Assembly: GCA_034509925.1 (NCBI GenBank)
Contig: CM067538.1
Location: 427,501 to 491,500 of the forward strand
Direction of reading: 5' to 3'
Length of the DNA: 64,000 nucleotides
Origin: Hirudinaria manillensis
Taxonomy: Eukaryota > Annelida > Clitellata > Hirudinida > Hirudinidae
The position numbers were made by a program, and so were the translations under genes. Every line of letters starts with the position of its first letter. Position 1 is the first letter of the stretch. Below the pieces are notes generated by a model that had not been told where the DNA came from, did not search any database, and saw only the letters and a list, made by a program, of their open reading frames with translations. Positions 473-61,157 of this stretch are shown here, one piece after another.

Positions 473-3400
473 CTGTTCGCAGGCAATAGTAACACCTACA
501 TAGCCGAATTGAAGGAAATCAACCCACCAATCATAGCCCGCTGGGTGAGGGTCGTACCCTACAGCGTCCACCCAAGGACCGTCTGCCTCAGACTGGAACT
601 CTACGGTTGTGTCTGGAGAGGTTGTTGTTGTTGTTTGTTTGTTTTGTTGATGTTTTTGCATTTGTATTTCTGGACGGGGTTATTGAGTTCAATGTTGTTT
701 GGTTTCAGATTGAAAATGATAGATGGTTGATGATGATGATGATGATGTGGGACTGCTAATAGTTTGATGAGTGCAATAAGTAATTAATTAATTATTATTA
801 TTTATCACGACATAATTATGATATTAATAGTTATATAATAGCATTATTAATGGTTATTATTCATTAACCTCCTGATTTGTACTTCGGTTGTTTTGCAAAT
901 AAATTAATGATTTTCATTTACAATTATTCACAACTCCTGGTAACAAAACAAAAAAGGATGAAAGATAATTTAGGATGTGGTGGATGATACTTCAGGGAAC
1001 GATCTGGGCTTGAAAGAAAAACGGATGGATGGATGGATGGATGGATGGATGGATGGATGGACGGTCGATCTGAGGGGGAGAAGGGTCGGGTTTGGAGATT
1101 TTACGAGCTCACACCCAGGTATGCTCTCCGACGTGGATCGCATTCCATCTTCATTAGTGACGTCATTAATCACGTGACCTCGGTAATTCCAGCCTCCTTT
1201 GATACTTGAAATCCAACCGCCCCTGTTGGCGGCGATGGTGGACAGGGGGTCGTTTGGTGCGTGCCAAGGGTGCCGAAGGTGGGATTTTGGGGAGCATGTC
1301 GATTGGTTAGAAACTGAATGATTGCATAAGAAGGAGGAATGATTGTAATGATAATAATAAGATGAATATCAGTGATATTTAAAATAATAATAGAATAATA
1401 ATCAAAATAAGAAGATTTGGAACGTACGTGTAGCGTATAAGAGGATCTGAAAGGAAAAATGTTTATTGGAGTGTAAGAAAGAAGCGATTCGTTCCAAAAT
1501 AATCACCCATCCACCCACGCTCCCCAAGCCTCCACCGTGACTCCCCAAAACCACACCGTGGCATCCACAAACGGATATTGGCTCCGGCAACCGCGGTCGC
1601 AAATAGGTCCTTAAAATGGAGGCACATGGAAAGTCATAAAGCGCTCGTTTGTTAGTTGCGCTATCTGACGTCTGCTCGTAAAGTTGTGGTTCGCGCGCCA
1701 CTCCAAATCCTACTGCCTCATTCTCCCCAACTGAGGAGGAGGCTTTCCATTCACCTCCCACCCTTCGCTTCATTCTCTCGTTCCATTCTTCTCTTCATCT
1801 TCTTCCTCTTCTTCCTCTTCCTTAATCCATCCGTCCATCCATCAGCGGCTCCATATTAATCCGATCATTTGTTCTTTCACCTTTCTGCATCCTCTTATTT
1901 GTTATATCCTTCCGCGTCATTGTCATCCTCTTTTTCATCGCAATCACCATCTTCATCATAGTCGTCTCCACCCATCCACTCCCCACAAGCTCCATGACAA
2001 CGACCGTTTCATAATGTTTGGCATCACCTTATGTCTATCGACCGATGTCAGCAAATTGTTTTCATTGTGACTCGATGGTACCATATTTTGGCCAGGATTT
2101 CTATAACGGCCGTCCATTCCTCCAACTGACCTGAGGAAAGGGGTGGATGGAGAAATCGAATAATGGCCACCCATCTATCCACACATCCACCCACCCATCC
2201 ATCAGTCAAGCCGATAGGGATATAGGGGCTCGGTTGAACAAAACAACGTGGGATTTGAACTTTTTAGATGAATTCGATCGTAAAAATCGAGATATGAGAT
2301 TGTTTGGTCGTTTTTATCAGTTTTGTCTTAAACTGATTCTTCATTTGTGTTTGTTCTTTTGAATCCCGGCGGATGGAAGGCTGACCGGCTTACCGGATGG
2401 ATGGATTGACGAATGGGAAGGCAAACTGACCGAAGTAATAATCGATATCGCAGATGGTCTCCTGTCCTACAGCATGCCGCAAGGGGAAAGACGAGGGACA
2501 GAACTCGACCTCTCTGATCTCACTTACGACGGGAAACTCGAAAGTGGCTGGCTGACCGGAGGTCTGGGTCAACTAACGGACGGAGCAGAGGGTCATTCCA
2601 ACTTTCGACTGGACACGGACGGCCACGGACGCAAGGGCTACGAGTGGGTCGGTTGGAAGAACGACACGATCCTGTCGCTCGTGTCGTCAGTGACGGGTGT
2701 CACCGGTGGTAGCAGTGGCGAGCCGGTCGTCAGCATCCTCTTCGAGTTTGACAGGCCGCGCAATTTTAGCAGCGTTCGATTCCATTGCAATAACATGTTC
2801 AGCAAAGAAGTTCGAGTATTTAGGAAGGCGATCATTCACTTCAGCCTGGACGGCGTCTTTCGCGATTCTGTCGCCAGAAGCAGCGGCGGCAGCGGTGGTA
2901 GCAGCCATGGCCTCTTCGACACCAGACGGCCCAGGCGAAACGATCGAAGCTACGGTTATAAGATACCGTCGACTCACAGCTACCATCATCATCATCACCA
3001 CCACCACCACCATCGTTCCCTTCTTGCCACGACCCAGGGGGACTTGACCTATGCCCTCCAATACCCTCCGGTGACCTTCGAGTTCATGAGGGATACTCTC
3101 ATCGATTTTGCGAGAAACGTCATCGTCACCATACCGGGGAGGGTGGCGAGGTTCGTTAGGGTCGACTTGCTATTCGACGCACGATGGCTCATGGTGAGCG
3201 AAGTGAGGTTTGAATCAGGTGAGTTGTCGGTCGTTGTCGGAAATGGTCGTCGGATTTGTACATTTTCGAATCCGACGACGACGATGACGATGATGTTGAT
3301 TATTAACGCTTTTGAAAAATATTATTAATTGTTATGTTATGCTCAATAATAGACGGTTAAACGTTTGATTGTTTTCGTCATCCTCGTGACCTTGAAACTC

Positions 3401-8009: not shown

Positions 8010-10760
8010 GTCGTTATTAACAATAACAATCACAATATAATTACTATCACCATTACTTTTATTATGATTTTAAATTACCTCTAATCCTATAAACGTTATT
8101 ATAAATGGGTTGCTAGGCTTCCCATTGGATGATCGATGTCTCCCATAATGCACGGCCATCTGTGATTGGTCGACGTGATAAGCCCCTTTTTTTGATAACG
8201 TCAAATATTGATTAAGGGATGAGTATGGTGAAGACAACGATGACGATGATCTTCACTATAAATCTAATTTTATTATAAATATAATTTTATTGTAAATATT
8301 ATTAAAAAAAATTTATTTTAAATTATATGGAGGATTTTTATTTTACATCCATATCCATCATAATCATGTTCAAACATATTTAAACCATCATCGGCCCAGA
8401 AAAAATGCTCCTCCGAAAAGCTTGCAGACGAGGATCCGAAACTGACCCTGCACTTGGGCGACGGAATTCCCCTAAAGAAGATGGAAAAGAACGGCCACTA
8501 CTACACGTACAACAACACCATCTTCCATCACCACACATCGACCACCGGTCGCTACAGCAGCTCCGTGCCGCCGGTCGTCCAAAGCTCCACAACCCTCAAG
8601 AAACCCGAAGACCCTAACCCTGTCGCCGGCGACTTGTTTTTCGGCGGTCTGTCGCCGGTGCAGAGGGAGCTGCCCGATATCCCCCTATTGCCCTACGAGT
8701 CCACAGGTGCGTGCGACCCCGCCCTTCACTAGCATAATTTTTGGATTGACTGTGGTTGAATTGTGTGAATAATTACAAAACCAGGAACACAACTTTTCAT
8801 GTTTAAACTCCGCTAAAAATATAAAATAATATTAAAAATGGTAATAAATACAAAATATTATACACATAACATGACAATTATTGTCTAATCCTAGACTATC
8901 TCTCGGACACAAATACTTCAACGTACGCTGTTCCGGACAACTATAGGATAGCTCCAACCTCGGCTCTATCTTCCTCAACTAATCAGCTTCAAGGGCAGTT
9001 GAGGTCGTCGGACCTCGTTCCCGACCAGTCGTCGACCAATTATAGGTCTCGAAACTGGGTCGGGTCGAGAATTGGCTCCTCCCACGACGTCCATTGGGAT
9101 ATGGGCACGATTGGAGTGAACGAATTCAGGCAAAACCAGTTGCGATTGGTCGAAAAGTTGGGGGAGGGCTTATTTGGGGAGGTAGACAAACATATTCCAT
9201 ACATTTTGACCTCTTACTTGTTTATTATCAAAGTTTATTTGATCCGTAACCTTTAACCTTTAACCCATAGGTTCACCTGTGTGAGGTCAGCCTCAACGGA
9301 AGAACATCTAAAGAGAAAAGGATAAATTCAAGAAAGATTGTAGGCGCGGTCAAAATTTTATCAACAAACGCTTCCCCTAAAATGAAGTTGGATTTCGTTG
9401 AAAAGAGAATTCAATAAATATTCGAGATTAATAATAATAATAATAATAATTATAATAATCTTAATAATATTCATGATGATGATAATGATACTTCAACAAC
9501 TGCAACAGAACACCAAATATCAACTCCGATTTAAACATATTCTACAAATTATTATCACAAATAAAATTCAAACTTATTAATAAACCTGTGACATAAATTA
9601 ACATATTATAATGAGCCTCAAAATATCCCCAACCGTCCATAGGGATAACTTCCTTCAGGAAGTTCAAATAATGGCCAGGCTGAGAGACCCCAACATCGTC
9701 TCCATCCTCGGGGCTTGTTTGGACGATGAGCCGTGGTTTGCCGTGGTGGACTACCCGTTTAGGGGAGACCTCAATCAGTACCTGAGAGCTCACTCGTACC
9801 TGGATCCACCAAGCTACCTATCGACTCAACAAAACTTCAAACTACTTGAAACCAAGACGCTCAGGTAATAAAAATAATGAATTAGCTATAGACTTGACAA
9901 TTACTTAACCGAATTAAACTCCACCCACCGACCAATGACAATCCTTCAGCTACGGGGCACTGATCTACATGGCAACCCAGATAGCCTCTGGAATGAAGTA
10001 CCTAGAAAGCATGAAGGTCGTGCACAGAGACCTGGCAACCAGGAACTGCCTCGTGGGTCGCTACCTCCAGGTCAAAATATCTGACCTCGGCATGACCTCC
10101 AGCCTCTACAAGGTCGACTATTATAGAGTTCAGGGTCAGGCCGTACTTCCGGTCAGGTGGATGGCGTGGGAATCAGTCCTATTGGTGGGTTGATTATGAT
10201 GATGATTTTGATGCTTATATTTATTAAAGGCGTCAAACATGCCCAAACAGGGAAAATTCTCTAGCAAGAGTGACGTCTGGTCATTCGGAGTTACACTCTG
10301 GGAGGTCATGAACTTTGCCCGCAACAGGCCTTTCGAGGGTATGGACGACCAGCAGGTAATAGACAGCTACGCCCGCTGCCTCCAGCTGGGTCAACTGGCC
10401 ACGACCTTGCCGCAGCCCGTAAGCTGCCCCAGAGAGATCTACGACTTGATGAGGGAATGCTGGAATAGGGAAGAAGAAAAAAGACCCACCTTCTCCGAGA
10501 TACACATGTTCCTTTCCAGAAAAAATCTCGGCTACAAGCCGTCGGAAGACATCACCGAAGACAACGACAATGACGACGACGACGACGATGCCGGCGAAGA
10601 TGGAGACGAAGAGGAGGAGGGAGATGAGGATGAGGAAGATGATGGGGAGGAGGATCATCATCAGGATGAGAGAAACGCTGGCGCTAACGAGAAAAGTGAA
10701 GCCGGCGTCAAAAGCGTCTGTCGTGGCTTCGAGTCCGACTCTAAGTCGATATTAGTTTGA
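473..10760 (+). CDS. ddr: Discoidin domain receptor tyrosine kinase, 3' ten exons (5' end outside window)
   Basis: Collagen-binding receptor tyrosine kinase. Exons: 473-620, 2454-3218, 6784-6837, 7254-7420, 8421-8706, 8895-9181, 9271-9386, 9643-9864, 9950-10184, 10251-10760. All have AG/GT borders and compatible phases and sum to 930 codons. Exon 1 is the end of the discoidin (F5/8C) domain ([21 protein letters not shown]). Exon 2 is the discoidin-like domain ([46 protein letters not shown]). Exon 3 carries two N-glycosylation sequons. Exon 4 has a Ser run and the membrane segment ([20 protein letters not shown]). Exons 5-6 are a Tyr- and Pro-rich cytosolic juxtamembrane. Exons 6-10 are the kinase: GEGLFGEV P-loop, AVK lysine, HRDLATRN catalytic loop, DLG in place of DFG, YKVDYYR activation loop, [22 protein letters not shown]. 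The start of exon 5 is the weakest junction; 8428 is an alternative. An acidic tail of about 70 residues follows the kinase, where known DDRs stop. The family assignment is firm. Confidence 0.93.
1023..1060. repeat. (GGAT)n microsatellite
   Basis: About nine perfect GGAT units inside the 1.8-kb receptor intron. Confidence 0.9.
3824..4122. repeat. Two (ATCC)n arrays in the 3.6-kb receptor intron
   Basis: Arrays at 3824-3899 and 4044-4122 with occasional ATCA units, separated by unique sequence. Confidence 0.9.
4894..5280. repeat. (ACTC)n array followed by inverted (GAGT)n array
   Basis: ACTC units run from about 4894 to 5034. After 180 bp of unique sequence the complementary GAGT array runs from 5213 to 5280. 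The two are opposite in orientation and could pair as a long hairpin in an intron transcript. Confidence 0.9.
6784..6837 (+). CDS. ddr: 54-nt micro-exon of the discoidin receptor (extracellular juxtamembrane)
   Basis: The exon lies between a pyrimidine-rich acceptor (attctcttcag) and a gtagtc donor. It is exactly 18 codons with phase 1 at both ends, so it can be included or skipped without changing frame. It encodes a short acidic segment with two N-glycosylation sequons (NLT, NSS), which suits the extracellular stalk between the discoidin-like domain and the membrane segment. Inclusion is inferred from splice sites and phase alone; direct joining of 3218 to 7254 is also in frame. Confidence 0.65.
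7970..8008. repeat. (AAT)n tract
   Basis: Perfect AAT repeats in a receptor intron. Confidence 0.85.
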
Positions 10761-11800
10761 TCGATATCATCATCATCATCATCATTATCAAAGACGTCAT
10801 CGACATTATCATCACCGTCATCTTTGACATAATTCTTTGGTCCATAGCATCAGTTTATTTCGTTTTCTTTGTAATCAAAGTCCACAGCAATAATAGTGAA
10901 ATTATAGTTATTATTATTATAATTATAATTATTATTATAAAATAATAATTTCTTACCTGCGCACCCGCTTTGTAAATCAGGCCTCTATAGCTTCTCCGCG
11001 TCGTCGATGATGAAGATGATGAAGATGATGATTACGATTATGTTGTTGTTGTTGATGATGTTGTTGTTGTTGCTGTCACTGAATAAAATGCGACACAATA
11101 ACATTAGAGAGGCTAATTATTCATGAAAAATGATAATGATACACGTTCAATTATCATAATTTATCGTAATTCGTAATTAATTTAGCGTCGCTTTCAACAC
11201 CAGCGGTCACCATATCAACGGTTTTCGTCGCGCCATCTCTGGAAAACCTCGCAAAACGCAAAACGTTCGCTTCGATGAATGCAAATTTATTGATTTATTA
11301 GCGAAATATGGCATGAAATATCGACCTTAACTAGACTAACGTGGTATCTCCATACGTAGGACGGACTGAGGTATCCGCGGTTGTTGATACGTCGGTATTG
11401 ATACATAGCAGAACGATTCGTGTCTTCTTGTGACGTTGTTTTGTGTTTGTGGTGCTTTGGGTATTGTTTTCGTTGTTATGTAATCATTATTATTATTGTT
11501 ATTATTATTATTGTTATTAGTTGTAGTAGTATTATATTTACTATTCGTTATATTGTTCGTGTATTTGTGTCGACAAATCAGACGTAATAACGTTAATGAT
11601 TGTGTATAATTGCAGCAATTATTATTATTATTGTTATTATTATAATTATTATTATTCATTTATAATAATTATTTATGTCGTTATTACGTTACTCGTTCAA
11701 CTCTTGTTTTATCGGGTGCTGTCCATAATTAATGAACTCAGATTTCAATTGTCTGGATGCTTGCCAAGTTGTTTCAATATCACCTTTCTAGATTCTCGTC

Positions 11801-11864
<64 letters not shown>

Positions 11865-12850
11865 TTAATAATAACAACGACAATAATAATCGTCATCTAT
11901 AAACTATAATTACTTGTGTAATAAATATTATGACTCATCATTTAACGTTATAAAATATTATAAAAGTATTTCTATTATTTTCATTTTCTGTGCGTGAATT
12001 TATTTTGTGGTTCAACTTATTCTGGCATGGAGCTGTTGAACTGAAGGGATTGTCACAGGTGTGACAGTATCGGGCGATATTAACATTGTAAATGTAATAA
12101 TAATAATAATAAATATTATAATAATAAATATAAATATAATAATTTTAATTTTGCACCGTCGTAGAGTGGCGTTTGTGACGCCTCATCGCGCAAATCTAAA
12201 GCACAAATCCCGACCTTATGAGGTATGAACATTTACAACGTGGTAATTCTGAGATATTACGAACATATTTCAAATAAACGACTCTACGAAGTTGTCTCGC
12301 TGCATCTTAGAAAATCGTTTGGAGAAACAAACATTTTACAGGATTTATTTATCTCTATAATTGCATTGTTATAGTTGTTAATGTTATTACAATATTATAA
12401 TTATTATTGTTATTATTAATTATTAATTATCAGTATTGTCCTTAAATCAAATCATTAAATTCTGTAGAAAACACGAGACAGATCCATTTCAATTTGCCCG
12501 TGACGCTTTTAAAAATTCATCAAAAATTCAAACATTTTCTTTTTTAACTGAGAACAGTTTTGTGCGATACGTTGGCACGTGAAAACGTAAAACAAAAGAA
12601 TATTTAATAATAATTTAATTTATTTAATTATAAAATCATTTTTAATCGGCTGCCAGTATTGTTTTTCAGGCCGCGTCATTGTACCGTAAATAATTTTGAA
12701 AATATGTTGTTGTTATTTTGCGGAAATAAGAACTCATTCATTTCTAGACGACAGTTGCATCAATGCAGTAAAGTATTGCAGGCCATAAATTATACACACA
12801 GTAGCTAAAAATAAGATATTAAAGAATTAAGTTTAAAAAAAAACCAGAAT
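10761..12850. other. Intergenic region, AT-rich, between the receptor kinase and the next gene
   Basis: No open frame with coding character was found. The region holds ATC runs just after the receptor stop codon, many AAT/ATT tracts (the longest at 11803-11862) and, from about 12100, AT-rich DNA leading to the start at 12851. The 3' UTR of the receptor and the promoter of the next gene must lie here, but no clear TATA box or polyadenylation cluster stood out. Confidence 0.5.
11803..11862. repeat. (AAT)n tract
   Basis: About twenty AAT units in the spacer between the receptor and the next gene. Confidence 0.9.
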
Positions 12851-15800
12851 ATGGATAGCGACAAAGAATCGAACGACTTTTTGGATCACTTCGTCGACTT
12901 GTTCAACAGACTCGAGGTTTCCTTGGTGCTCCACTGCAGCGACCATCTGAGTGAACACTCGAAAGGCAGGTGGGACAGCATGTTCAATCACTGCCAGAGA
13001 ATCCTGAGAAAGTTGGGCAAATCCATCCTTTGGACCAGCAAAGTCAAGCCGCTGGAAGCGGAATCTTCTGAAAAAGAGATGGACAGTTTCGGAAGGAGCG
13101 TAGGCAACCCCTCGGCAAGAATAGAGCAGATAAAGATAATGCCCAGGGGCAAGAAGCTGGATCAAGTTCTCGCTGCCAAGAGAGGAGGCACGAGATCCCG
13201 AAAGGCTTCTTTCTTGCGGAAAAGTCCCAAAAAGGACAATGCCGTGATCGAACGCTTGGAGATGTTGGCCGCTCGGCATTCCAGCGTCGAGGACGACTGC
13301 GGCGAGTACCGGTCCATGTTGAGGCAACTCAACGGAGAGAAGGAGCCAAAGTTTAAAAGTCTGCCACTGAGGATTCCCGCGAAGCCCAAGAAGCAGACGC
13401 AAATGTCTCAAAACGTCTCGTCAAAAAATTCCCAACTCCAAGACAGGCAGAAGCCGTATTGCGACGACAAATGGCTCAGCAGTAACGTTCGAAAATCCGT
13501 CTCCACGATTTCCAAGATCATCATGAGAGATGCAATCCTCTCCCTCAACCATCCCATGATCAGGATCAGCAAAGAACCCGTAGAAAATCTCAAACATCGG
13601 CAAACTGGCTTCACCAGGTTCAAGCTGATGAGACACCTGGACATATTCCAGAAGATCCTTCAGTACAAGTTCAAGGACATCGAAGATGAATTGATTCAGC
13701 TCATAATTTCTCCTCTGGATATGTTCAAATTCCTAGACGATAGCTTCGACTGCGTTTCAGAAACCTACCCGAAAAAGAAGCAGACTTTGGTCAAATTCAA
13801 GGAGATCGTTTCCTATAACAGGAAAATCAGAGGCCTCAGCAGATCGAGGCTTATACACCATCGAAACGAGTCGCAGAGACCGAGAGACAAAGTCTGCCTG
13901 TTCAAATCTCACCTCCACTTTTGCTCCTTTCTCCTACTCCAGGCCATCAAAGGCGACATGGATCAACTCCTTGGCTACATCAAGGGCCTGACAGTACTGG
14001 TCAAGAACTTTGCGAAACTCATGTACATATTCATGGCTTACCACGACAAGCAGGGTTTCATCTCTCTGATAGAACAAACTCGCATTAAGCTCATTCCGAG
14101 GTTATCCTGCCTGCTCATCGTTCAAATCTTCTGCAGCACTTTTTGCGACTTGGTAACTTGCTGGCTCATGTCCGGACTCTTGGAGGCGGACAAACACCGT
14201 CTTTTGGCCTTCGTCCAGGACGATTTCGACCGAATAAGAGGGAGCAGAGGGAGTAGCAAAGCCTATATGTCGACTTCGTCATCGAGTCGAAGACAGTCGA
14301 CATCTTCCCTGAAAAAGGGAAGGACGGAATTGTCTCATGTAGACATCAGGAGATCCAGTCACGGCGGGAAAGGTTTTAATTTGAAGACGGTAGAAAAGTG
14401 GCTCAGGGAGTTTATCATCTTCTTGGCTGGAATGAACGAAGAGGAAGCCCTTGAATACGATTTCGTTTTGAAGAAGGTGGAAAATAGACCTATAGTCAAG
14501 GTTTGGAGTAGTACGATGATGTCTAATAAATGGCGTGTACGAATTTGTGTTTGATGATAAATTTTCAGGCACAATTGATATCATTCAATTCACAAATTCA
14601 CGATTTCAGTGGACTCTGTTCTTAACCCATACCTTTCACGTAAACAAAACTACATCAAAAATTCATTAAAAGTTTAAAGCTTCACTTGTCAATATTAGGT
14701 GCGCATGTCTTTGTGGAGTATCATGCCAGAAAGGGACAGGGAGAGTACCACTTTATCCATGTCATCCACTAGGGACGTCTTCATAGCCGAAGGGGGTCAT
14801 CTCAGCTTCGACCTCGAAGGTGCCAAAAAGTTCGTGGAGAAGGAGCGCATGTCTTATTCGACATTCACAGGAGACACCCACAAGCCAAAGAAAGTCCTGG
14901 TTGGCAATAAGTTGTTTTCATCTTATAAATAATAGCTTAATAATACCAATAATAATAATAAAGTTATAAAAGAGAATAAAGTGGATATTAACCTTAGGAC
15001 GAACAGGTAGAATTACTAACAGTTTGCTTTATAACTTAACATATAATTGATAATCTTTTCATTTCCCCAATCCAGTTCACCAGGTCGGCGAAGGGCCTAA
15101 AAACACCAAAGGAGAACTCGGCTCGGATATCGGACATGTCGAAATCATCAGAAGGAAGGGATTCCGGAAGCAAATCTGGAAGCAGGACTGGAAGCAAGAC
15201 TGGAAGCAGGACTGGAAGCAGGACTGGAAGCAGGAGTGGAAGCAAGCAGGCAAGCTTCGCGGAAACCTCTAGGATGTCCACGACCGAGCTAGCCGTGAAT
15301 CTCATCGAAAGTCTATACCAGAGTAACGACTTCGACAATGACGCAAACGAAGAGGATGACCAGAACAAAATACAAGTGGTACTGCCTAGATCCAATATCG
15401 ACAAGATTCAAGGTATTTTGGCCTCCAAGGGACTTAAGGGCTTGACAAGCACCATAAGCGAAAGAGAGGCGTTTCAGGGGAAAGGGGATGACATCTCGCC
15501 CATTTCTGGATTCTCGCACAATGACGACGAGATAAATACTTTCTTCGAGACATACTGGGAGCCAAAGCTCATGGACATTGCCATGAAGACCGAAGATTCG
15601 ATTAAGGAAGAAAGCTTGGGTGCAAAAGCTAAGGAAGTGGTAATAAGACCGACATACGGCCAAGTCGTTCTTAATCTCGATCCGGCCCTCGTGGCTAAGT
15701 GCCTGGTGGCCTTTTCCCTGAAGGATGACGATAACTGGCCGGTAGGCAGACGACAATCCTACAGGAGTCTGCTTAATCCGGATCTGGCTCTCATCTCGAA

Positions 15801-16374
15801 ATTCACCACGGTTAACGAGAGGACGGCTCAAAATCTGGAGAAGCGTCGCAAGACCTCGCTAAGAATAGAACTACTTCCGAATCTAGTCGCTCTCCTGGAC
15901 AATCAGCACGAGCAGGCTTTACAGCTCAAGATGAACCAAGATGGACTCGATCAGCTCAAAACTCTGGTCAAAGAAGAACTCGAACGTCAGTTGATCGACT
16001 TGCAGAAGCAGGAACAGGAGATGGCCAAGTCGGCAAAAAATATGAACGTCTTGACCGGGGCGTCAGCGCAGGCCAAGGGAGACGGGGAGGAAGACGATTT
16101 ACTGAACGAGGAAGAAGTCCTCATAAGTTCCATCAACTTCCATTCGGCCACGATACTCGACGACATTGAGGTATCGGCCACCAACATGTATCGGGTCTTG
16201 TCCAAAACCGACCTGACAATTTACAAGTCCTCTCAAGAAGACGTTGAAGAATGCGGAGACGAGGAAGCCGTAGCCACAGATGCCTACACAATCTTTAACA
16301 TTCCGAAGATCATCAATGCCCCAAGCGGTTGTGGCCAAGGATCGAGCGCTATCAAATTGAGTGAAGTGGAATGA
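12851..16374 (+). CDS. Hypothetical 1049-residue protein, three exons
   Basis: Exons 12851-14500, 14699-14899 and 15076-16374 are joined by phase-0 introns of 198 and 176 bp and sum to 1050 codons. The ATG at 12851 is the first in the frame, and the open frame ends at a TGA. I recognise no domain. The protein is hydrophilic and mostly helical in character. A basic linker (about residues 90-230) precedes a Leu-rich central part. Exon 2 has the peptide RESTTLSMSSTRDV followed by EGGH. The start of exon 3 is a Gly-Ser-Arg/Lys tandem repeat (units GSRT/GSKT, 15168-15247), then an acidic, helix-rich C-terminus with a Gln/Glu-rich stretch. No signal peptide or clear membrane segment was seen, so it is probably intracellular. 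Exon 2 resembles part of the gene at 32803-41331 (RDV...EGGH); the two may be distant paralogues. The open frames and splice sites are strong; the function is unknown. Confidence 0.85.
15168..15247 (+). repeat. 12-bp coding tandem repeat (Gly-Ser-Arg/Lys-Thr/Ser)
   Basis: Units of the type ggaagcaggact are repeated about six to seven times in frame in exon 3 of the hypothetical gene at 12851-16374. They encode alternating GSR/GSK-T/S, a basic flexible linker. Confidence 0.9.
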
Positions 16375-17592
16375 AACCCAGAGGCCGTCGGAGCTTGTAA
16401 AAGACCCTTTTCTATCTACACAACGGTCACTCAGCCACCACGTTTTCAAATTCTATAAATTCATGTTTCCACTATTTTCACTCACATATGGGAGTCGGTT
16501 TAGCTAAACTTTGTACGTTAAGTACGTGGACATTGATACTTATGCGGAGGTACAATTTTTTAAGAGTAAACATTCAATACAACAGTTCCCAGCGATTAAA
16601 AGATAATTTCTAATGTTAATGCATTTATTAATTAATGAATTAAATTTTTTTGTTAATTAATCTTAATTTTCTTTTTCGTAATTAAAAGGATCCACCCACA
16701 ACTACCGCAATTAATTTTAAATCTGCAACATTGGAAACCCTCAAGACATAAGTAAACGTCTAGAAAATTGATTTATAACACCAAGTATTTCGAAAGAATA
16801 AGGAACAAAATACCTAGAAAATAATTCAATTTTAATTTCACTTTCATTGACTTCCGGCTGGAAATGCTGGGACATCTTTTAGGCTGCAGTTTTCCCACTT
16901 CTATTAGGGATGATATAAACTTTAAAAAAAGATACATACTTACATTAAATAACATTATTAATGGAGGCAATAACAATAATTCATGGAATTTCCAAACAAT
17001 TTAAAACATTTTGCCATTAAAAAAAACTTTTTTTTAATTCTTTAATCAAAAGGAGCAGGCGGTTCCCTTTTAAAAGCCTCGTGCATGCACAGAAGGAACA
17101 CAGAGGGTCCTCAAATACACGAAACGTTCGGCTTTCCAGGCGTCCGAATTGTTACTGGAAAAGTTCACCCTGAGAGGGTCACTTTCGGGCAACAATTACC
17201 CCCCCTATTTGGCCGAGGGCTGCTCCGCCCTCCGACAGAATCTTTCGAACTGTTATATGCAGGCTTTGAAATAAATCTAGAACTATTGTAATGGAAAACT
17301 AAATAAGTTTGTTGGTCTGTTGTTTTCAGGTGAGAATTTATTGGTGCCAGGTGAAGTAATCACGTGACGACACGATAGTCTATGTTTAGTGAGCTTATAA
17401 TTATAGAATATCGATAGATTATAAATATATTGTATTAAAAAATTGCTTTTAAAATACATTAATGTTATTATAATACCATAAACATTATTATGACTCCGAA
17501 TAGAGTTCGGCACGCTATAGCTGCAATAATCGGTCGAAATCAAAATAACTTCTCAACATTCCAACATTATCAGAAAACCAAATCGACTGGCA
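16375..17592. other. Intergenic, AT-rich, no gene seen
   Basis: The 3' flank of the hypothetical gene ends near 16600 in AT-rich sequence. A 68-codon open frame at 17085-17291 has no recognisable content and no support. Nothing else of note. Confidence 0.5.
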
Positions 17593-18123
17593 ATGATCGA
17601 AGGGTCGACCGGTACCGTCGTCGCGGCTTCCACCGACGGACAGACGCGACGATCCCGCTTCCAAAAGGCCTACAGCACCGACGTCAACTCTGCCAATGCC
17701 CAGCGTTTCCAGCAAGGTCGCTACACTCAACAGCATCACCAACCGCAAAAGCGCCACAACTGGTCACGGGGCGTGGCCACTTCCAGCTCGTCAGTGGCCG
17801 CGACCAAGACGCAAAATCGCCGGAAGTTGACGTTCGACGTCGACAACAAGTGTGGCAGTCAATTGGACGTCGTCGCCGACGACGAACGAGTCTCCGCGAT
17901 CACCAGAAACAAAACCATGACGCTTTCTGAGCCCTCGACTGAGGAAGAGAAGAGTCGTCTGCTCCACAACTGCAAAATCGACGACGTTCCCGACTGCACT
18001 TTTTCAGCCATGACGGACGCTACGCCGACTGCATCTAACCGACCGCAGCAACAGCAAGCGACACAACGACTGAAAGCTTCTAAGCCGATTCTGGTCGACA
18101 ACAAAGTAATGCAAACGTTATAA
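17593..18123 (+). CDS. Possible hypothetical protein, 176 aa, Gln/Ser/Thr-rich
   Basis: An open frame from ATG 17593 to TAA 18121-18123, in a stretch clearly richer in GC than its AT-rich flanks. The protein is polar and low in hydrophobics: QQ-rich segments, a Ser run (SSSS) and an acidic EEEK segment. There is no signal peptide, membrane segment or known motif. The frame is open upstream to about 17530, so it could be the last exon of a larger gene. A second frame (17490-17930) overlaps it, which lowers confidence. I do not recognise the family. Confidence 0.4.
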   Translation: MIEGSTGTVVAASTDGQTRRSRFQKAYSTDVNSANAQRFQQGRYTQQHHQPQKRHNWSRGVATSSSSVAATKTQNRRKLTFDVDNKCGSQLDVVADDERVSAITRNKTMTLSEPSTEEEKSRLLHNCKIDDVPDCTFSAMTDATPTASNRPQQQQATQRLKASKPILVDNKVMQTL

Positions 18124-18414
18124 CAGATTATCTGCAGTATGTGTATTAATAATTATTGTTAGCATAACTTATTCTTTTGAAATATCAACGTTTATATTAA
18201 CTGTAATTAGGCCATGCTGTTGATGTTATTTATATGTTCTTGCATCTCTAAGCCGACTCAGAATGCACCATCGGCATGGCTAGCCGGGTTTTGTTCCGCT
18301 TAACGCAGCCTCAAGCAGCAATGCATCCGTCGCTCTCGTAGTCACGTGATCATTTCGCTCTCTCAGACCACTTTCGCAAACCCCTTGAAGAAAAGACCGC
18401 TCTGAGTGGGAAGT

Positions 18415-18503
18415 GAGTGAGTGAATGAATGAGTGAGTGAGTGAGTGAGTGAGTGAGTGAGTGAGTGAGTGAATGAGTGAGTGAGTGAATGAGTGATTGA
18501 GTG
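18415..18503. repeat. (GAGT)n array with GAAT variants
   Basis: GAGT units interspersed with GAAT and GATT variants. Confidence 0.85.
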
Positions 18504-19390
18504 AGTGAGTAAGGAAAGTGAATGATTAATCGTTCTTCTGAAAAAGACGAACCGGATGAATGAACGAGTGAATGAGTGACTCATCTGTGAGTAGATGTGT
18601 CGTGTTCGATTACGTCTATTTACAAAAAGGCTAACAACAGTATCGAGCGGGAACTGAGCGAGAACGGAAGTGCCGCCCCCGCTGCCCTGATATGTATGAC
18701 ATCTCCCTCCTGAGCCTTGGCCTTAGTCAAACCCATATCTAATGGGTGGCCTGATTTGCCTGCCACGTCGAGAGGTCGTTTGACCCATATTACTGGGTGA
18801 GTGGGTGGTGAATGGACACCTAGAATTACAGGCGCGTAAATAAGTGACTCAAACGTGGGTGGATGAGTAATTTGTGCGAGTGAATGAATGACTGAGTGAG
18901 CGAATGCATATTTCTTGAGAGTACACCTTTATTGACTTATGGCCGATACGGTGGACGGTCAAAGGCCGGAATGAAAGGGGAGTCATTCCAGTCAGTGGGT
19001 CTGGTATTCGAGGCCCGCCGTAAGCTTCGGTGCGTGGTACGATGCCATAGAGTGGATTGATTAATTGATTGATGGCGATGCCAAGTCAAGACTCACGTAA
19101 CAATCCCTCGTAATGTACGTCGTTTAACAACGATCCTCTCTTCGCAGAAACCTTCCATTCCGGAGTCTCAACGTTGCACTTGGTAAAAATGGATCAGAAA
19201 TGCTTTCCAAACATTCCTATGTGGATCACAAATACTATTACTAAGCATCGGTCCACCTACCTCTCATCCACAACGTTTTCATCATCCTTCTCTTCCAGCA
19301 TAATTCTTGGTCCTCATGTCTATAATAATGGCAGTAATCTCGACTTGTTAGCGGACGACACCCCTTGAAGAAGATTGCCGCTTAAAGTGT

Positions 19391-19491
19391 TCAGTGAGTG
19401 AGTGAGTGAGTGATTGAGTGAGTGAGTGAGTGAGTGATTGAGTGAGTGAGTGAGTGAGTGAGTGAGTGAGTGAGTGAGTGAGTGAGTGAGT
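19391..19491. repeat. (GAGT)n array
   Basis: About 25 units with GATT variants. Confidence 0.85.
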
Positions 19492-19923
19492 AAAGAAGAG
19501 AAAAGGTATGCCCTCCTTAATACATCATCGTCGACCACTTTTCGTCATCCCAATAAGCATAATGGTTTTTCCATGAAACAATTTCATTTTAATCTCTCAC
19601 GTCCTTCACGAGCATCTCTCTTTCAAATCATTCATCTGTCCATCCATTCATCTTCTCCTGTCAGTGTAACTTCAGCAGCCATCAATAATTGTCGAAACAT
19701 TGGTTTAAAAAGATTATTCAATTATTCAATTAAATGTGCCGGACACCCCGAAATCCAAATGATTTAAAGTTTAATTTATGGATGGACGGACATTTGGATG
19801 GATGGGCCACTAAATGGCTAACGAGGGGGGTAATAAAGGTATAATTGGGACTGAATTCAGGGTAAGTGACACGGATTGAATCATTTTCCTTTACCCCGCT
19901 TTTCACTCCATCATCATTTTCAG

Positions 19924-22558
19924 TCCCAGAAATTCCGCAAGTCTTTGTTGTTGACGTCGCCGGTCGGAAAAACGATTACGTCATCGATGACGTCACCGCA
20001 GGCATCTTCAGGATCGCAGCTGGATTCCTCGAGGCTCACGAGGCAGGACTTTCTTCCTGGAAAGGACCACCCAGAGCCGTTCTCGTGAGTCCACTGGTTA
20101 TGATGGTGATGATGATGACGATAATAATAATAATAATAATAATAATCATCATAAAGTTATACTTTCAAGAGACCTGCATTAGATTCGATTGAGGACATCA
20201 TATTTCTGTTGACCATCACCATCATGTCTATGCCAAGGCACTCTACATATTTTTTTCAACAAGTCCCACAACGAGCCATCAATCTCTAACCATTCAACCT
20301 CTCGCAGCAATGACCTATGCACCTGTTCACCCCAAAAACCAAATTTCGACGACGTTGGTTTAAGTGCGTATCAAGCGGGTGACGTCTCTAAGTAACCAAA
20401 TGACCGTCGGTACTGGAAAATGAATGGAAACGGTCTTGAGATTATAGTAGTGAGAAGAAAACTTTAGACCCGCAATAGGGGCATATGCACCTCCCCCAAT
20501 GTTTCCCACCGGAGCCAAATTTCTGTATAAATCATTTGTTCTAATAATGGACAAAGGAATCGTTTGTATCTTCATTTGACTGCTTTCGCTTTTCTCAGCC
20601 TCCAGATGTCGATAGCGCTTCGATCGCTACTCCTTCAGGACTTTGTCACGTCATCCTATGACTTGCCTTCTATCGATTCCAATGGCATCCCAACAAGGGG
20701 AGGTGATGGGCTAAACTGAATAGACGATGACGACGACGATGACGATGGCTGATTCGAAAGTTTGATAAATAGCGACAAAAATGGACAGGAAAGGGTGGAA
20801 TAAGTTTAAGAAGAGATGGACTGAATAATCGACGAAGAAGGACAGAAACCTCTCTAGAATGTTTAGCATGGCAGAGTTGAGCTGGAATGATGTTAATTAT
20901 GGACAGCACTTTTAAAATGTCCAACTTGTCCTTTTAAAACATTGTAGCAATGACGTGATGATGACGATGCCGACGACGAGGACAGCGATGATGACTGGTA
21001 AATGGTCCGATAAGACATTGAAGTGGAAGCCGTAAAGATGCCAAAAGGATAGGTTTTTGTATAGGCAGCGGTTTTCTTGAAGGTCCATGTAGGGCGAATT
21101 CTGACCATCATCATCATCACCACCACCACCATCATCATCACCGTCATCATCACGACAATCATCCTGGCAGTCATATACGTCACGGACGCATGCCAAAACC
21201 GTACGTCAGAACCATGTTGTTCGAGTACCTAACGAAATTTAACGACAACCTCGACTTCTTTGTCACCCATAATTGAGCCATCCTTCTACCCCTACCTACT
21301 CTGACAGACACCACCCTAATTTAACCCTCCTCCTACATGCCCCCCATAAATTACTGTAGCCTATCAGCAAGGTTGTTTGTCAACGTGGCCCGGGGCAAAG
21401 AAATGACAACCCGTAGTCAAGACGGTGTCGATCTCTGACCTTCGTCTAGTGGATTATCATAATTACGATGATGTTTATTTCTAAACATTTGTAGAATTAA
21501 TTACGGAAATGTTCCTTATATTCTGACTCAAATATATTTTTCATTTAACATGTTATCGTTTAAAAATGTCGCATGATTTTCATCAATTATTTTGAAATAT
21601 ATAACTTGATTGTTAACAATGTCATTGGTAATCATTCACAGATTAAGTTATTCAGTTTTAAACAACATTCATCGCGTAATCTGAAAATTGATTCGACCAA
21701 TTGAATGCCAGGGTGCTTGTGGAGAAGGCCAACGATTGGCTGAAAAAACAGCCAGAGGTCAGGGTCAAGTCTTGCGAAACGATCACGTGCATGTTCAGCG
21801 ATCGCTATTGGCCAACGAATTTTGAGTGCATGTTGCAGTCAAAAACAATACTGCCAAATGTAACCAATCACAATGTGAGGGGTTTGAGGTTAGTGATGAT
21901 GACGACGACGATGATGGTGATGATGATGACAAAGTGGACAATGCTATTCGTCAACATTTAGTAAAGTCATCATCACAACATATAGGCTTTGGCTAGTGCC
22001 CAGAGGACCGACCAATCAGCTTCAAGCTCTACAGGTCACTGACTTCTTGCCCTCATCAGTAGAGGATGATGTGGGTTCTTTGGTGCAAAGAATCAACTCC
22101 AATATTGCTGATAACACTCTCAGGGGTTAATAATAAACAATAATATTTTTTTCTTCAATTGTTCAAATATTGTTAATATTGTCTCCTTCTTCGCCAAAAT
22201 GTTGACCTACACTTCCCTCGTTTGCTCACGAATCCAGGTCAAATATTGACCATAGAAACCATATCAGTGGCCAGACCGGCCGACCAATCAACTCCTATGG
22301 ATTCAGACGCGACCTACTGGCCTGAATCCAGTAGCCAATCGAGTTGCTTCGTCTACGCCGTCAGGGTCTTTGCCAACACCGAGGCCAATGGGAGGATTTG
22401 TGGCAGCGAAAAGGTCTTTGTAGGTGGGCGTTCCTTATCCGTTAGAAACACTCATCCATCCATTCATCCATCCATTCATCCATCCTTCCATCCATTTATT
22501 TGTTTGATCCATCTGCCAGTTTCAAATCCTATTTTTATGTGTCACTGACTTAAAAGAA

Positions 22559-22599
<41 letters not shown>

Positions 22600-25500
22600 T
22601 AATGCTTACGTATTAGTGGACTTGAGAAGAAGCCTTAAGTGAATTTCCGTGTTTAAAAGTGAACCTTGTGTCTGCTTTGATCAATGCTCTTGACGTTGTG
22701 AGTTTGTGCTCCGGCGACTGTCAACATTGGATTATGAAGGCCAACATCATCGTTATCATCACCACCGCCATCACCATCGCCGTCATCATCGTCGTCCGCC
22801 TAATGACGTCATCGATAAGATGGAAGATGTCAACATTCATCAACTCTGTAATCCTTCAAGCAACAAATACTACTAAACTTCCAAACATCGTCTACGAACC
22901 CACTTTTCCAATCCCAACTCCCAAATCCAATCTTCCATCCGCATATCCACTTCGCCCCACCAAAATAAGTCCCGCTATCCACTAGCTCGACCAGCCAGCC
23001 AATCCGACCATCCGTCTATCTATCCATCCATCCAACCAACCACCCGTCTGTTCATCCATCCATCCAACCGCCCGTCTGTCCATCCATCCATCCACTTGAT
23101 GTTCCAAATTTCCATTCAAGTCTCGTCATCCCTTTGATACGTTTTCCTGCTGCGTTGAACAATGAACTGCCTTTGCGTGTATTTTGCCTCCAAGAGATTT
23201 TTGCATTATTTTTAACAATAACAATGTCGGTTGCAGATGACGATGACGACGACGACGATGGTGGCGATGATGAATATGATGATGGTGGCAATGATTGATG
23301 TAATCAGCGATTTACATATCCATGACCTGAGGGTGTGTTCCAATACACAGAATTTCAAAGCATCCTCCAAGTGCACCATAATCATCGTCATCATCATCAT
23401 ATCCACCGAGAACACTCAAAAACTTCACTTCCGGCCCAGTTTTTCTTCCGTTTCCTCGAAAGAAGTTTGATGTATCAACTGCGAGGTTGATGACGATGGT
23501 TTTTCTAATGATGATGATGACGACGGCGACGACGATGTTGATGATGATGATAATGGTTGTGGTGATGATGATGATGATGATAATGGTTGTGGTGATGATG
23601 ATGATGATGATGATGACATCACCATCTTTTAGAAAATGCAGAAGCACACAAACATCGGAACGTGTTCCTCATGAAAGTACATAATTGAACTTCCCTTCAA
23701 AAAGACGAAGGCAATTTTAGGAAATATTTTGCCAACAATGGCTTCCAATTTATCTCATTTAGGAAATAATTATAACTATCAATATTATTACGACGATTAT
23801 TACTAATTCGCAATTTTTTATTAATTCATATTAATTACCATTTAGAATGACATGATGCAGTTGAACTAACAATTTATTTAAAAAAGAAGGAAAATTCAAA
23901 TGAAATACTAGTCAAAAAGTGAAGAAAACTTGTATAATCCGTTCACTCAATAACTCAACCACCCATCATCCCATCTATCCGTCCGTCCGTCGTTCATTCC
24001 ATCCATCCATCCATCCATCCATCCATCCATTCATTCTCTTTTCCTTTCATTCATTCATTCATTACTTTATTTCTCAACGAAAAGATATCTAAGCTGACAT
24101 CACAGTCTCCCCTGGGGCTCGTAAATATGCCCCCACAACCCTAGTAATTCCGTGACTTTAAAACAAAGAAACAACTCCTGGAAAAGAAAGAACAATCGAG
24201 TTGCTCGTGCAGTCTGCTCGGCCTCAATTAAGATTGGATGGTTGGAATTACTCAGGTCCCGTGGTGGGTAGAAATTGACCCTCCTCTGACCATAAAAGAA
24301 AATCGCGGAGTGGGTTCTTAGACCACTTCGCAGGGGTAGACGCCACTCGGCCATCATGGTTGGCTCGATGAGTAGGTTGTAAGTGCTTCACCTCTATGGT
24401 GAACATTTCAAGTTTGACAGAGTGTACGAATGTAAGAGCACCGCTGGTCGGAAATCCTGAATTTATTGGCTGATATAAGAGTGTAATTGATTCAAAAGGG
24501 TTCAATAACTGAAATTGAATTAAAAATTCAATCAGTCACCGGGGATGGTTGTTAGGAATTTCAGTTCAAAGTGAACGTAGATAACGTAGATTGAACCCAA
24601 GTGTTTTTATCAATGCCGTCGTCGTTATCATCACCATCATCACCATCATCATCATCACCGCGGCAGGAGTCCAGGATATGATCCCGATGAAGAAACGCTT
24701 CGCTACGACTACAGTTCCGACTGCCGTCGACGTCACGAGCGTCCGTCGCCACGACGATGACGACGTATGCGACGACGGCTACGAAGAGTTCTATGAAGGA
24801 TTCGAGGACCTGATAGAGAGAACGAACCTATGGATGACTGAAATGTGGATGAGGGAAGAAGAAAACTTTCTGGCTCTCAATCTCCAGTCGCTGGTCGTTC
24901 AGAAGTGTTCCGGTGAATTTCTCCGACCACAACGATGATGATGATGATGATGACGATGGTGGTGATGATGATGATGACGATAAACTGATATGGCAAACTG
25001 ATAATGATCATAAATCTAATCCAAAGAAGCCTTAGACGTCATTACCATCATTATCATCATCATCATCATCACTATCATCCCTACCCCAGACAAAAGACCG
25101 GGCACCGACTGCCACTACTCCATGCCAGCATTGGACAGCGGTCAACAGTTAGACATGTTGCGCATCCTCAGAATCTACTTTCTCACCCCAATGGGCAGTC
25201 TCCTCGTCGAGCTCCCTCCTCAAACACCCCTAAACTTTCACACCATCTCTCCTGAGATCAAGGACACCTCGAAACCGGGTCACAAAAAAGGTCACCAGGG
25301 AGGGGTCAAGAGTTCAAGGACCAAGAGGAAACTGGAGAGTATGACGGAGCTGGTGAAGCGGACGAACGAATTTCTCACTGGCCAGGGTAAGTGATAACAA
25401 TGATGACGGTGGTGACGAAGACGACGATGATGATCATGAAGCGACGACGAGTTATGACGATGACGTTAATAGATTGCGACGGGAAAAGACTGAAGACTTT

Positions 25501-28053
25501 GAAAATGGCCGTTTCCATGACAAACATTTAAACAACAATTATGAACTGGAAAGATTTTCAAGAGAAACAGGAGAATCACCTCTTGTTTAAACATATTTCG
25601 ATGATGATAAAGACATAACACGATCATCATCATCATCATCACCACCAGCAGCAGCAGTATCATCATCACTATCACCAGTACCATCACCACCACCACTGCA
25701 ACAGCATCATCATCACCATTATCATCAAAATTCTCTCAGCGTCAGAAACGATAGGATACTTCAAAGAACTTGTTGACTTGAGGCAACGAAAAAGATTTTT
25801 ATATAATTTATTTCTCTCATAATTGGGCGCTAAATAATTTATTCCCAATTCGCAATTTACCGTCGGTCCACAATCCATAATAGATATTATTATAACTATT
25901 ACGATAATATAATAATGTAATCGTAATAATAATAATGTAATATAAATAATAATTTTAATAAATGATATTACAGCAGCTCTGAAAGCTGTTGCTGTTCACA
26001 GCGAGTTGAATTTTTCATTTCACTTAACAACTCTTAAAAATGGAATTAATCATCCTGGTACAATAAAATGACATATCCTAATCCCCGCGAGGGTATAACC
26101 GGGTCCTAATGACCATTCCCCCTGCCCCATCCACTCCCTCTCTCCCACGCTCCCTCAAAACCCTACTCGGGTTTTAAATGGCATCCCAAAAATATAAACG
26201 TCTCATACTTTCCAGAACAATGACCGCCCCAAAATTCCTGGCGAGACCTGAAAACTTAAGTCCGAAATTGAGGCGGAGATACGTCATAATGTGGAAAGCA
26301 TTCCGAGCGGCCATAAGAAGGATTAAAATCCATAATGACCCAACTAATGACCTTCAAAACGACCAAGGACCACGAGAAAACCTGGAAAGGAATGAAAGAA
26401 GAGAGCTCATGACTGGAGAATGAGTAAAGGAGTGAAAGGAGTGAATTGGTGATTGAGTAAAGGAATGGATTAATTAAGTTGATATCATTGGGCAAAACCC
26501 AAAATGAGGTCGACAGGGCTTTCTACAAGGGTCATGGGTCACACCAAACAGTTATCGTCGATTGGTTTCATTTATAAATTTGTTTTACACGTCACAAGAC
26601 CAGCACTCACAAAACTGAGCGGAAAGTGAAGCAGCGAGTAGTTGAACTGAGAGAGGGGTAAAGGAATGAAATATTACGGCGATTAATTAACGTCTGTTCC
26701 ATGGACAAGTTGATCGAGCGAACCAGGATATAAGAACATATTTAATAGCCGATGAGTGAGTGGGTGGATGAGTGAGTGAGTGAGTGAGTGAGTGAGTGAG
26801 TGAGTGAGTGAGTGAGTGAATGAGTGAGTGAGTGAGTGAGTGAGTGAGTGAGTGAGTGAGTGAGTGAGTGAGTGAATGAGTGAGTGAGTGAGTGAGTGAG
26901 TGAGTGAGTGAATGAGTGAGTGAGTGAGTGAGTGATGCGATCAAGCGAGAAGACAACTTGAGTTAGCAGGTATCATGAATGTTCAAAGGCTGCTCTGAGG
27001 AGATCCTGAACGCCGAAACCGTGGTCAACCTGGTCTTTGATCCTGTCTACCTATCTGGACATTCCGATCGAAATGATGACGTGAAATTCCTTCTAACCAT
27101 AAGGTGAGTTGACAACCGAGTGATTGGTCGTTGACTGAATGAAAGGATGTACTAATGTGTAAACAAGGAGTGAATGAGTGAATGGCACTATGCTTTAAGG
27201 CGGGTTTTGAACGCAATCTCCAAGTGCCAAATACCGTCACGTTGAGCACAAACCGATTCCAATGCCCGCTTTTCTGTGAATCTATTCTATCACTCTTGAT
27301 AACGTTGTCCATGGATGACGATGACGACGATGATGGCCGTACATGCCACCCATCGCCTGGATAACTAAAACATCAATGGGACGTTCAAAAATATGGAAAA
27401 ACGAGTTTTACCGCCTTCCCATTCTGACGATCACGTTGATTAAGCTCAAGGGATGAGTGCGTTTTGGGCCGTTTAGGGTAGTCTTGGGTGGCTGTTGCTG
27501 GCGCAGTTGCGGGACGGACGGACGATACAGGGTGGGGAAAGATGCGAGGAGATGGCACTGGGATAATTTAGCGCCAGATGCACGCAAAACTTCCGCCGAA
27601 AAAGCACTCGACTCAATTCCGACTAATTTGCGAATGAAAAGATGGCCGGCGGAAGTAATAAACGCGGGCGATAAATGGCGGCCGTCGCCGCGATACGGCT
27701 ATGGCGGGAAAATGTGTCACTTCCTTTCCTGACCGCTGAAGTTTTCTCTTAACCCCACCTCCAGGCTGTACACGATCGCAAGGAGGGATGCCAATAAGAA
27801 GATGACTTCACTGGCCGCTTCGACTGCCTGCAGCGTCGACAACGACTGCAACAACACCGGCAAGACCCCCGTCGGGAGCAGCAAATTAGCCGGTTGTTCA
27901 TTCGAGAACGAAGAGTCCCATCCTGGTCCCATTTTCCTCGGTCACGTGGTCAATAGGAGCTACAAGTACCGGTGGCTAGTGGCTGGTGCTACAGTCATCT
28001 TCTGTATGACCGTGGTGGTCATAGTCTCCGTAGCCTACAGCAACATCCGCTGA
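19924..28053 (+). CDS. Uncharacterised single-pass membrane protein with four diverged repeats
   Basis: Exons 19924-20084, 21712-21888, 21986-22125, 22238-22423, 24667-24912, 25090-25386, 26989-27103 and 27765-28053. From the second on, phases are all compatible (2,1,1,1,1,2). An exon between 20084 (phase 0) and 21712 (phase 2), and the N-terminus, are missing from the model. Four diverged copies of one unit are visible. Each starts with LV(E/K/Q)xxN and about 20 residues later has a CETI/IETI/LQSL/AETV core. Each ends with a strand such as VRGLRLWLVPRG, FVYAVRVFANTEA, MLRILRIYFLTPMG or KFLLTIRLYTIARR. The last exon has a Cys-containing stalk and one membrane segment (WLVAGATVIFCMTVVVIVSV) ending in a tail of a few residues. 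This suggests a type I surface protein or an enzyme-like ectodomain on the cell surface, but I cannot name the family. The 22423 border could be 22419. GAT/ATC and GAGT repeats fill the introns. Confidence 0.75.
22452..22601. repeat. (ATCC)n then (AAT)n tracts
   Basis: Degenerate ATCC/ATTC units at 22452-22496, then AAT units at 22564-22601, in an intron of the membrane-protein gene. Confidence 0.8.
23481..23622. repeat. GAT-rich low-complexity block with an internal duplication
   Basis: GAT triplets with a duplicated segment (ataatggttgtggtgatgat) at about 23551 and 23580. Confidence 0.8.
26757..26935. repeat. (GAGT)n array, about 180 bp
   Basis: About 45 units with four GAAT interruptions, in the intron before the exon at 26989. 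Confidence 0.9.
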
Positions 28054-53188: not shown

Positions 53189-53936
53189 GATGGATGGATG
53201 GATGGATGGATGGATGGATGGATGGATGGATGGATGGATGGATGGATGGATGGATGGATGGATGGATGGATGGATCGATGGATGGATGGATGGATGGATG
53301 GATGGATGGATGGATGGATGGATGGATGGATGGATGGATGGATGGATGGATGGATGGATGGATGGATGGATGGATGGATGGATGGATGGATGGATGGATG
53401 GATGGATGGATGGATGGATGGATGGATGGATGGATGGATGGATGGATGGATGGATGGATGGATGGATGGATGGATGGATGGATGGATGGATGGATGGATG
53501 GATGGATGGATGGATGGATGGATGGATGGATGGATGGATGGATGGATGGATGGATGGATGGATGGATGGATGGATGGATGGATGGATGGATGGATGGATG
53601 GATGGATGGATGGATGGATGGATGGATGGATGGATGGATGGATGGATGGATGGATGGATGGATGGATGGATGGATGGATGGATGGATGGATGGATGGATG
53701 GATGGATGGATGGATGGATGGATGGATGGATGGATGGATGGATGGATGGATGGATGGATGGATGGATGGATGGATGGATGGATGGATGGATGGATGGATG
53801 GATGGATGGATGGATGGATGGATGGATGGATGGATGGATGGATGGATGGATGGATGGATGGATGGATGGATGGATGGATGGATGGATGGATGGATGGATG
53901 GATGGATGGATGGATGGATGGATGGATGGATGGATG
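53189..53936. repeat. (GGAT)n satellite, about 745 bp
   Basis: About 187 head-to-tail GGAT units with only one visible base change (ggatc at 53276), followed by a few GAAT units to 53957. Long open frames in five of six frames across it are artefacts of the 4-bp repeat. Confidence 0.97.
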
Positions 53937-54313
53937 AATGAATGAATGAATGAATGAGTAGGTGACTAGAGATGAATAAAGATCGATGGATTGCTTGAAA
54001 CACGAGAGATGGAAATGACTGCTGGAGAAAAACGAAGCCACTTAACTGGAAAGCAGCTTCTTGAGTTTTAATTATGAGGACAAACCCCCTTATTTGCTGG
54101 ACCTTCCTCCATCTTACCCTCCTCCATCTCTCCTCTTCTCCCCAATCGTTTTAGCTTCCTCAATCTCTTTCTAACCACGTACGATCGCTCTTTTTTCTGC
54201 CCACCAAAGGATTTCCTAGATCGAGTTAAAATGAGATCCATCGAGAGATGGATTCTATTCGTCATTAAATAATTGCATTAAAGTTAAACGCCTACTCGTT
54301 TATAAAAGCATCC

Positions 54314-55033: not shown

Positions 55034-55355
55034 CCCCACCCACTCTATAACGGTTATGTTTATATTTTCCGGAGATGAGCAGCCCTTCTTTCTGCTTCGA
55101 TGATCTTCCGACCGTGGCAACTTGTCATTGGTGGATAAAAATAAACAAAAGAAGGAAATTCCGAGGATAAAAATAAACTCCAATGATTTATTGTTCATTC
55201 TTTAGGCTCCTCCCAATCTTCCGACAGGAAGTCGTGTTTTTTTTTTCAATTGAATTTCTTTCACGATTTTAATTTAATGTTTTGATTTGTAAATTTAGAG
55301 AATTATTAATTAATGATTTCATTTGACGTGTTAATATCTTTTTTAAATATTACTC

Positions 55356-61044: not shown

Positions 61045-61157
61045 GTGAGTCGAACGAAGGTTATGAATACATCGCTGAGATCGCTTGTGAAAATTCTTGG
61101 CACTTCTGGAACCAACGTTGTTGTCCTTTAGGGATCTGTTGTCATGCCCTTTCTCAG

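Follow-up and report, generated by a model that had tools for sequence, protein, structure and literature searches.

What protein is encoded between positions 21712 and 28053 of a 64,000-nucleotide stretch of the genome of the leech Hirudinaria manillensis, and on which side of a membrane do its repeated units lie? The stretch as a whole (the window) corresponds to C13:427501-491500 in a genome assembly of 148.4 Mb and 23 contigs; other loci are named likewise by contig and position. The genome of this species is given as 157.5 Mb in 13 pseudo-chromosomes in an account of three leech genomes (PMC10087013). When spliced in silico, seven plus-strand exons with GT-AG borders yield a single open frame of 482 codons and a stop, with intron phases from E2 to E8 of 2, 1, 1, 1, 1 and 2. 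The parts of the gene are these:

21712..21888, + strand: exon E2, unit A: helix, CETI strand and the greater part of its closing strand; entered in phase 2
21986..22125, + strand: exon E3, end of unit A (LWLVPRG), then the QVTDFLP strand and helix of unit B
22238..22423, + strand: exon E4, IETI and YAVRVFA strands of unit B; donor AG/gtgggc, phase 1
24667..24912, + strand: exon E5, unit C: QDMIP strand, helix and LQSL strand, plus an Asp-rich insert
25090..25386, + strand: exon E6, closing strand of unit C (ILRIYFL), then the HTISPE strand and helix of unit D
26989..27103, + strand: exon E7, unit D: AETV strand and first part of the closing strand
27765..28053, + strand: exon E8, last part of unit D (LYTIARR), then a polar linker, the membrane segment and the stop
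27973..28038, + strand: C-terminal membrane segment WLVAGATVIFCMTVVVIVSVAY; only SNIR and the stop come after it

The membrane segment is preceded by PIFLGHVVNRSYKYR, much of which is conserved, and the Asp-rich insert of E5 is absent from five aligned paralogues. Because E2 is entered in phase 2, at least one exon lies upstream of it. The first exons of four paralogues carry a KYKDFLP-like motif, and a search of positions 10000-21700 for an exon with a DFxP motif gave no convincing match with a fitting donor; a candidate at 19925-20085 was rejected, its donor being in phase 0 and the exon being seen in no paralogue. The preliminary description had assigned the exons to one gene with units that straddle exon borders. 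The first statement is upheld by the open splice, the GT-AG borders and the same exon order in five paralogues on other contigs, and the second is borne out by the exon map.

Elsewhere in the window, exons of a discoidin domain receptor tyrosine kinase lie at 2363-3325 and 10212-10757 on the plus strand (DDR1-2_DS-like, E 3.5e-53; tyrosine kinase, E 7.8e-24), and long plus-strand open frames of 579 and 444 codons (12815-14551 and 15040-16371) have no Pfam match at E 0.01. The 941-codon frame at 58223-61045, also on the plus strand, matches 7tm_1 in three stretches (E 7.4e-58) and seems to be a rhodopsin-type receptor encoded without introns, one of its loops being very long. Near-perfect tetranucleotide arrays, (GATG)192 at 53189-53956 and (CACT)183 at 54313-55045, lie near each other with strong GC skew of opposite sign. 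In the genome at large the Pfam hirudin model has one match (33.9 bits against a cut-off of 25, 26 of 64 positions, one stop inside), and the same model exceeded its cut-off in 0 of 14 control genomes.

Each unit consists of an xDFxP strand, an LVxxxNxW helix, an xETx strand and an LRxxx closing strand. The conserved xDFxP strand that opens the unit had been overlooked; for unit A it is expected on the upstream exon that the window search did not find. The motifs quoted earlier are all present, namely CETI with GLRLWLVPRG, IETI with YAVRVFANTEA, LQSL with ILRIYFLTPMG and AETV with LTIRLYTIARR. In a first comparison of profile pairs, with each unit drawn from 6-8 relatives, three pairs matched well (A-C, E=7e-9; A-D, 4.6e-4; B-D, 5.8e-4) and three weakly (A-B, 0.041; B-C, 0.018; C-D, 0.01). 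In that comparison 2 of 40 column shuffles exceeded the real A-B score and none of 40 did so for the other pairs, and for C-D the reversed profile scored 17.1 against a real 18.5. With 12 relatives per profile (hhalign) the values were 7.2e-7 (AB), 1.9e-13 (AC), 1.1e-8 (AD), 3.5e-9 (BC), 5.3e-8 (BD) and 9e-7 (CD), and 0 of 40 shuffles reached the real score in any of the six pairs; shuffling was the control for these profiles, the reversed-profile control belonging to the 6-8-relative comparison. The self-similarity of the four segments, proposed at the outset as a check, is thus significant in all six pairs with the 12-relative profiles.

Every one of the six 12-relative alignments pairs the helices with each other and matches ETxx, or QSxx, to ETxx, and xDFxP is aligned with xDFxP or TFxPE in five of them, the exception being C-D. 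Closing strands pair with each other in AC, BC, BD and CD, and in A-D with the 6-8-relative profiles, and the A-B alignment ends before reaching them. The intron positions recur as well: units A and D each have a phase-2 intron within an Arg codon of the closing strand, and units B and D each have a phase-1 intron within a Gly codon that lies between helix and strand, 6 (B) and 9 (D) residues before the Glu of ET in the window protein and 6 and 7 in the C4 protein. These positions lend independent support to the homology of the units and, in light of them and of the profile matches, it is most likely that the four units descend by duplication from one ancestral unit.

Searches for a known domain gave no such relationship. 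No Pfam family exceeded its cut-off for the spliced window protein, for the proteins of four relatives or for 21 single units, and sub-threshold matches were taken as chance; NCBIfam gave no accepted match with one CaaX relative (see below) as query. A PDB sequence search found no relative of the spliced window protein and no convincing match for the unit profiles. Two low PDB E-values, unit A with complement receptor 1 (E 0.0006, 15 positions) and unit C with a circular tandem repeat protein (E 6.3e-12, 18 positions), were rejected as repeat artefacts, because they were summed from sub-threshold fragments in repeat proteins, no stretch passing alone. No relative turned up when prokaryote and viral contigs were scanned with part of a CaaX relative, and an AlphaFold model of exon E2 alone, from a single sequence, was unusable (pLDDT 43.6). 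PTHR38564, with zebrafish si:ch73-250a16.5, is presumably a set of uncharacterised animal proteins with such units; a literature search by these two names found no paper, and in a wider search no title or opening of an abstract pointed to a paper on the family.

The gene belongs to a family with at least 19 loci in the genome, itself included. A search with units A and B gave clear loci on C1, C4, C12 and C5 and weak ones on C2, C7 and C9 (E 0.02-0.28), the latter confirmed by exon comparison. Later searches added C10, C8, C1:13.75 Mb, C1:1.64 Mb, C4:12.19 Mb, C7:3.52 Mb and C1:0.44 Mb, among which C8 and C10 were weak in the search itself and clear by profile, and further loci were added at C13:0.61 Mb, C1:11.01 Mb, C1:10.86 Mb and C16:0.11 Mb. 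The last two have equal scores in two of three matched exons and similar scores in the third, and could stem from a recent duplication or from duplication in the assembly. Matches at C5:108324 (E 0.49) and C1:9.16 Mb (E 0.62) were left out of the count. The family is one for which no name, fold or function was found here, although a single small animal genome carries 19 or more of its loci.

Twelve of the 19 loci were read far enough to assemble most units. The window gene has the four units, the exon order and the phases of the family; the order is common to five paralogues (C1:58 kb, C4:1.19 Mb, C5, C9 and C12), of which the C4:1.19 Mb paralogue yielded no conserved first exon. Phases of 2, 2, 1, 1, 1, 1 and 2 were as expected at 33 of 34 borders looked up in the five, and the remaining border (C12, E7) reads AG/GTCTGT in the sequence, which is phase 2. 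Paralogue donors were picked by eye, two of them, both in C1, being GC donors, and some exon ends in C1, C4 and C9, including E4, were set by hand and differ by a few residues from the border look-up. The window protein is 28-35% identical to its five close paralogues, which are 28-51% identical among themselves. In the C10 relative one uninterrupted frame covers both the unit D closing strand and the C-terminus, as would follow from loss of the last intron. A near-identical short repeat, perhaps a mobile element, occurs once at the C1 family locus and twice at that on C4.

The C-terminal ends differ within the family. In all six assembled proteins of the branch to which the window gene belongs, the end segment has a KD19 value of 2.36-3.04, against 0.83-1.63 for the next best, and stops 4-8 residues before the C-terminus; basic residues lie ahead of the helix. 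The conserved stretch PxFLxxVVxRxxxYRWL together with the helix has a mean column identity of 69%, against 55% and 38% in two unit alignments made alike. Read from E2 onward, the window protein has, like a tail-anchored protein, a single membrane segment less than about 30 residues from its C-terminus, and its end, SNIR, is not a CaaX box. Two relatives have a homologous last exon without the membrane helix, reading VFLDGDFIEPPAYLLPPSPMVEEVNDCTCSLM at C7:3.52 Mb and VYLDGDFQEPPAHLLPPLPMVEEINDCKCSLM at C1:0.44 Mb, and end in the CaaX box CSLM (...CTCSLM and ...CKCSLM, respectively). CSLM is a CaaX box of the farnesyl type, as is the CSIM at the end of lamin A, and CaaX boxes, which are signals for lipid attachment, act on cytosolic proteins. 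The last exon is the best conserved between these two relatives, at 77-82% against 52-66% in the other exons.

Among further last exons, the match at C4:12.18 Mb extends to the last query residue, the C13:0.61 Mb and C1:11.01 Mb matches stop short of it, and that at C1:13.76 Mb is weak (E 0.48). On C2, C8 and C10 neither helix nor CaaX box was seen in a recognisable last exon, a further exon being possible, and the end of the C7:0.25 Mb gene was not found at its locus. Over the 19 loci there are thus six membrane segments, two CaaX boxes, three ends with neither seen, and eight not read or found. The single C-terminal membrane segment of the preliminary description is confirmed by the KD19 peak near the C-terminus in all six assembled proteins, and its four units of an unnamed domain on that segment accord with the splice, the profile pairs and the outcome of the Pfam and PDB searches.

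An unrooted tree was built for 12 of the 19 loci from exons E2-E6, so that neither E7 nor E8 entered it; some pieces were absent from the alignment. All six tail-anchored proteins group together (99/99; 0 of 500 label shuffles were as low), the two CaaX proteins make up a separate group (100/99; 29 of 500 as low), and C2, C9 and C7:0.25 Mb have long branches. The grouping of the tail-anchored proteins is consistent with a single change of anchor. Its direction, from CaaX box to helix and not the reverse, is read solely from the CaaX ends that such proteins would have in other animals. It is proposed tentatively, at somewhat less than even confidence, that the unnamed four-fold repeat defines a cytosolic animal family with interchangeable C-terminal ends, and that in a leech lineage the last exon became a transmembrane tail anchor once and came to occupy six loci on six contigs. 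If so, the switch of anchor is a natural experiment in changing membrane address.

The placement of the units turns on the N-terminus as well. By hydropathy, four tail-anchored paralogues have a largely polar start to their first conserved exon, as in MQEPMIINGKVPDPEARARLLAV (C5) and MLLKMAELSPNQSSRSQDF (C1). In a scan of about the first 35 residues after an assumed Met, the start codons being likewise assumed, the best 10-residue hydropathy was 0.72 in C1, 0.85 in C5, 0.07 in C12 and 1.57 in C9, and by this measure no clear signal peptide was seen in these four paralogues, in which the first exon was found. Exon comparison revealed no conserved exon farther upstream, although it was hardly sensitive enough: it recovered the first conserved exon itself only in C1 and C12, those of C5 and C9 having been found by motif, so that a shorter 5' exon would hardly be detected. 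Because the paralogues have no clear signal peptide, the helix is near-terminal and two relatives end in CaaX boxes, the four units are probably cytosolic and held at the membrane, not extracellular; the basic residues before the helix count toward the same placement. The ectodomain of a surface receptor or adhesion protein that had been suggested earlier finds no support in the largely polar start of the first conserved exon in four paralogues, the position of the helix 4-8 residues from the end and the CaaX relatives. The scaffold proposed alongside it could still apply.

A type I surface protein, with extracellular units, a signal peptide on an unseen first exon and a C-terminal helix with a very short tail, is one alternative. 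The membrane helix is real, the first exon of the window gene is missing and could carry a signal sequence, and the paralogues too could have an unseen 5' exon. Set against this are the first conserved exons of four paralogues, where no strongly hydrophobic start occurs, the basic residues N-terminal of the helix and the two CaaX ends, which make such a protein improbable. Still less is to be said for a decaying pseudogene. The window copy is among the more diverged tail-anchored members, sharing 28-35% identity with the others; its unit C contains an insert and it is without a recognisable first exon, but its seven exons are all open, with canonical borders and conserved phases, and its membrane end is intact, so decay is very improbable.

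More weight, although it too is unlikely, attaches to the idea that the units are copies of a known domain, diverged so far that sequence search no longer reaches it, in a protein of some named superfamily. HMM searches often miss short diverged repeats, and the E2 model (pLDDT 43.6) gives no usable fold; yet the window protein, four relatives and 21 units all failed to reach a Pfam cut-off, and PDB gave low E-values only by summing sub-threshold fragments. The reading favoured here, with fair though not strong confidence, is a tail-anchored protein in which four tandem alpha/beta units in the cytosol are followed by a polar linker, one C-terminal helix and a four-residue tail.

In such a protein the four tandem units would face the cytosol, the C-terminal helix would be inserted into the membrane after translation, and the repeated array may bind partners or lipids at the cytosolic membrane face, the anchor presumably having changed once within the family. 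Judged from this architecture, the protein might serve as a membrane-tethered adaptor or scaffold, which is the most economical reading because the four units sit on an exchangeable cytosolic anchor. The likely first exon of the C8 relative contains a TPPPYSP stretch, which holds a PPxY motif of the kind bound by WW domains; this single case would fit an adaptor role. The differing C-termini provide a handle on topology, by which a repeated domain would be moved from the outside to the inside of the cell, and the idea of a surface receptor becomes a set of testable questions on membrane address and fold.

The closest comparison is within the genome. Like the window protein, the CaaX paralogues at C7:3.52 Mb and C1:0.44 Mb have the four units and, as far as they were read, the same exon order, and the start of the last exon is homologous, reading R-V-F/Y-L-D-G against R-L-Y in the window branch; unlike it, they end in CSLM in place of the membrane helix. 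PTHR38564 and si:ch73-250a16.5 presumably have four similar units as well, with a Cys-containing, prenylation-like end. Among named proteins, SNAREs of the VAMP type have a cytosolic body, as the window protein probably does, and, like it, one C-terminal helix less than 30 residues from the end, although, unlike SNAREs, the window protein has no SNARE or other Pfam domain. The prenylated SNARE Ykt6 offers a parallel to the exchange of anchors itself, in that lipid and helix anchors occur within one superfamily.
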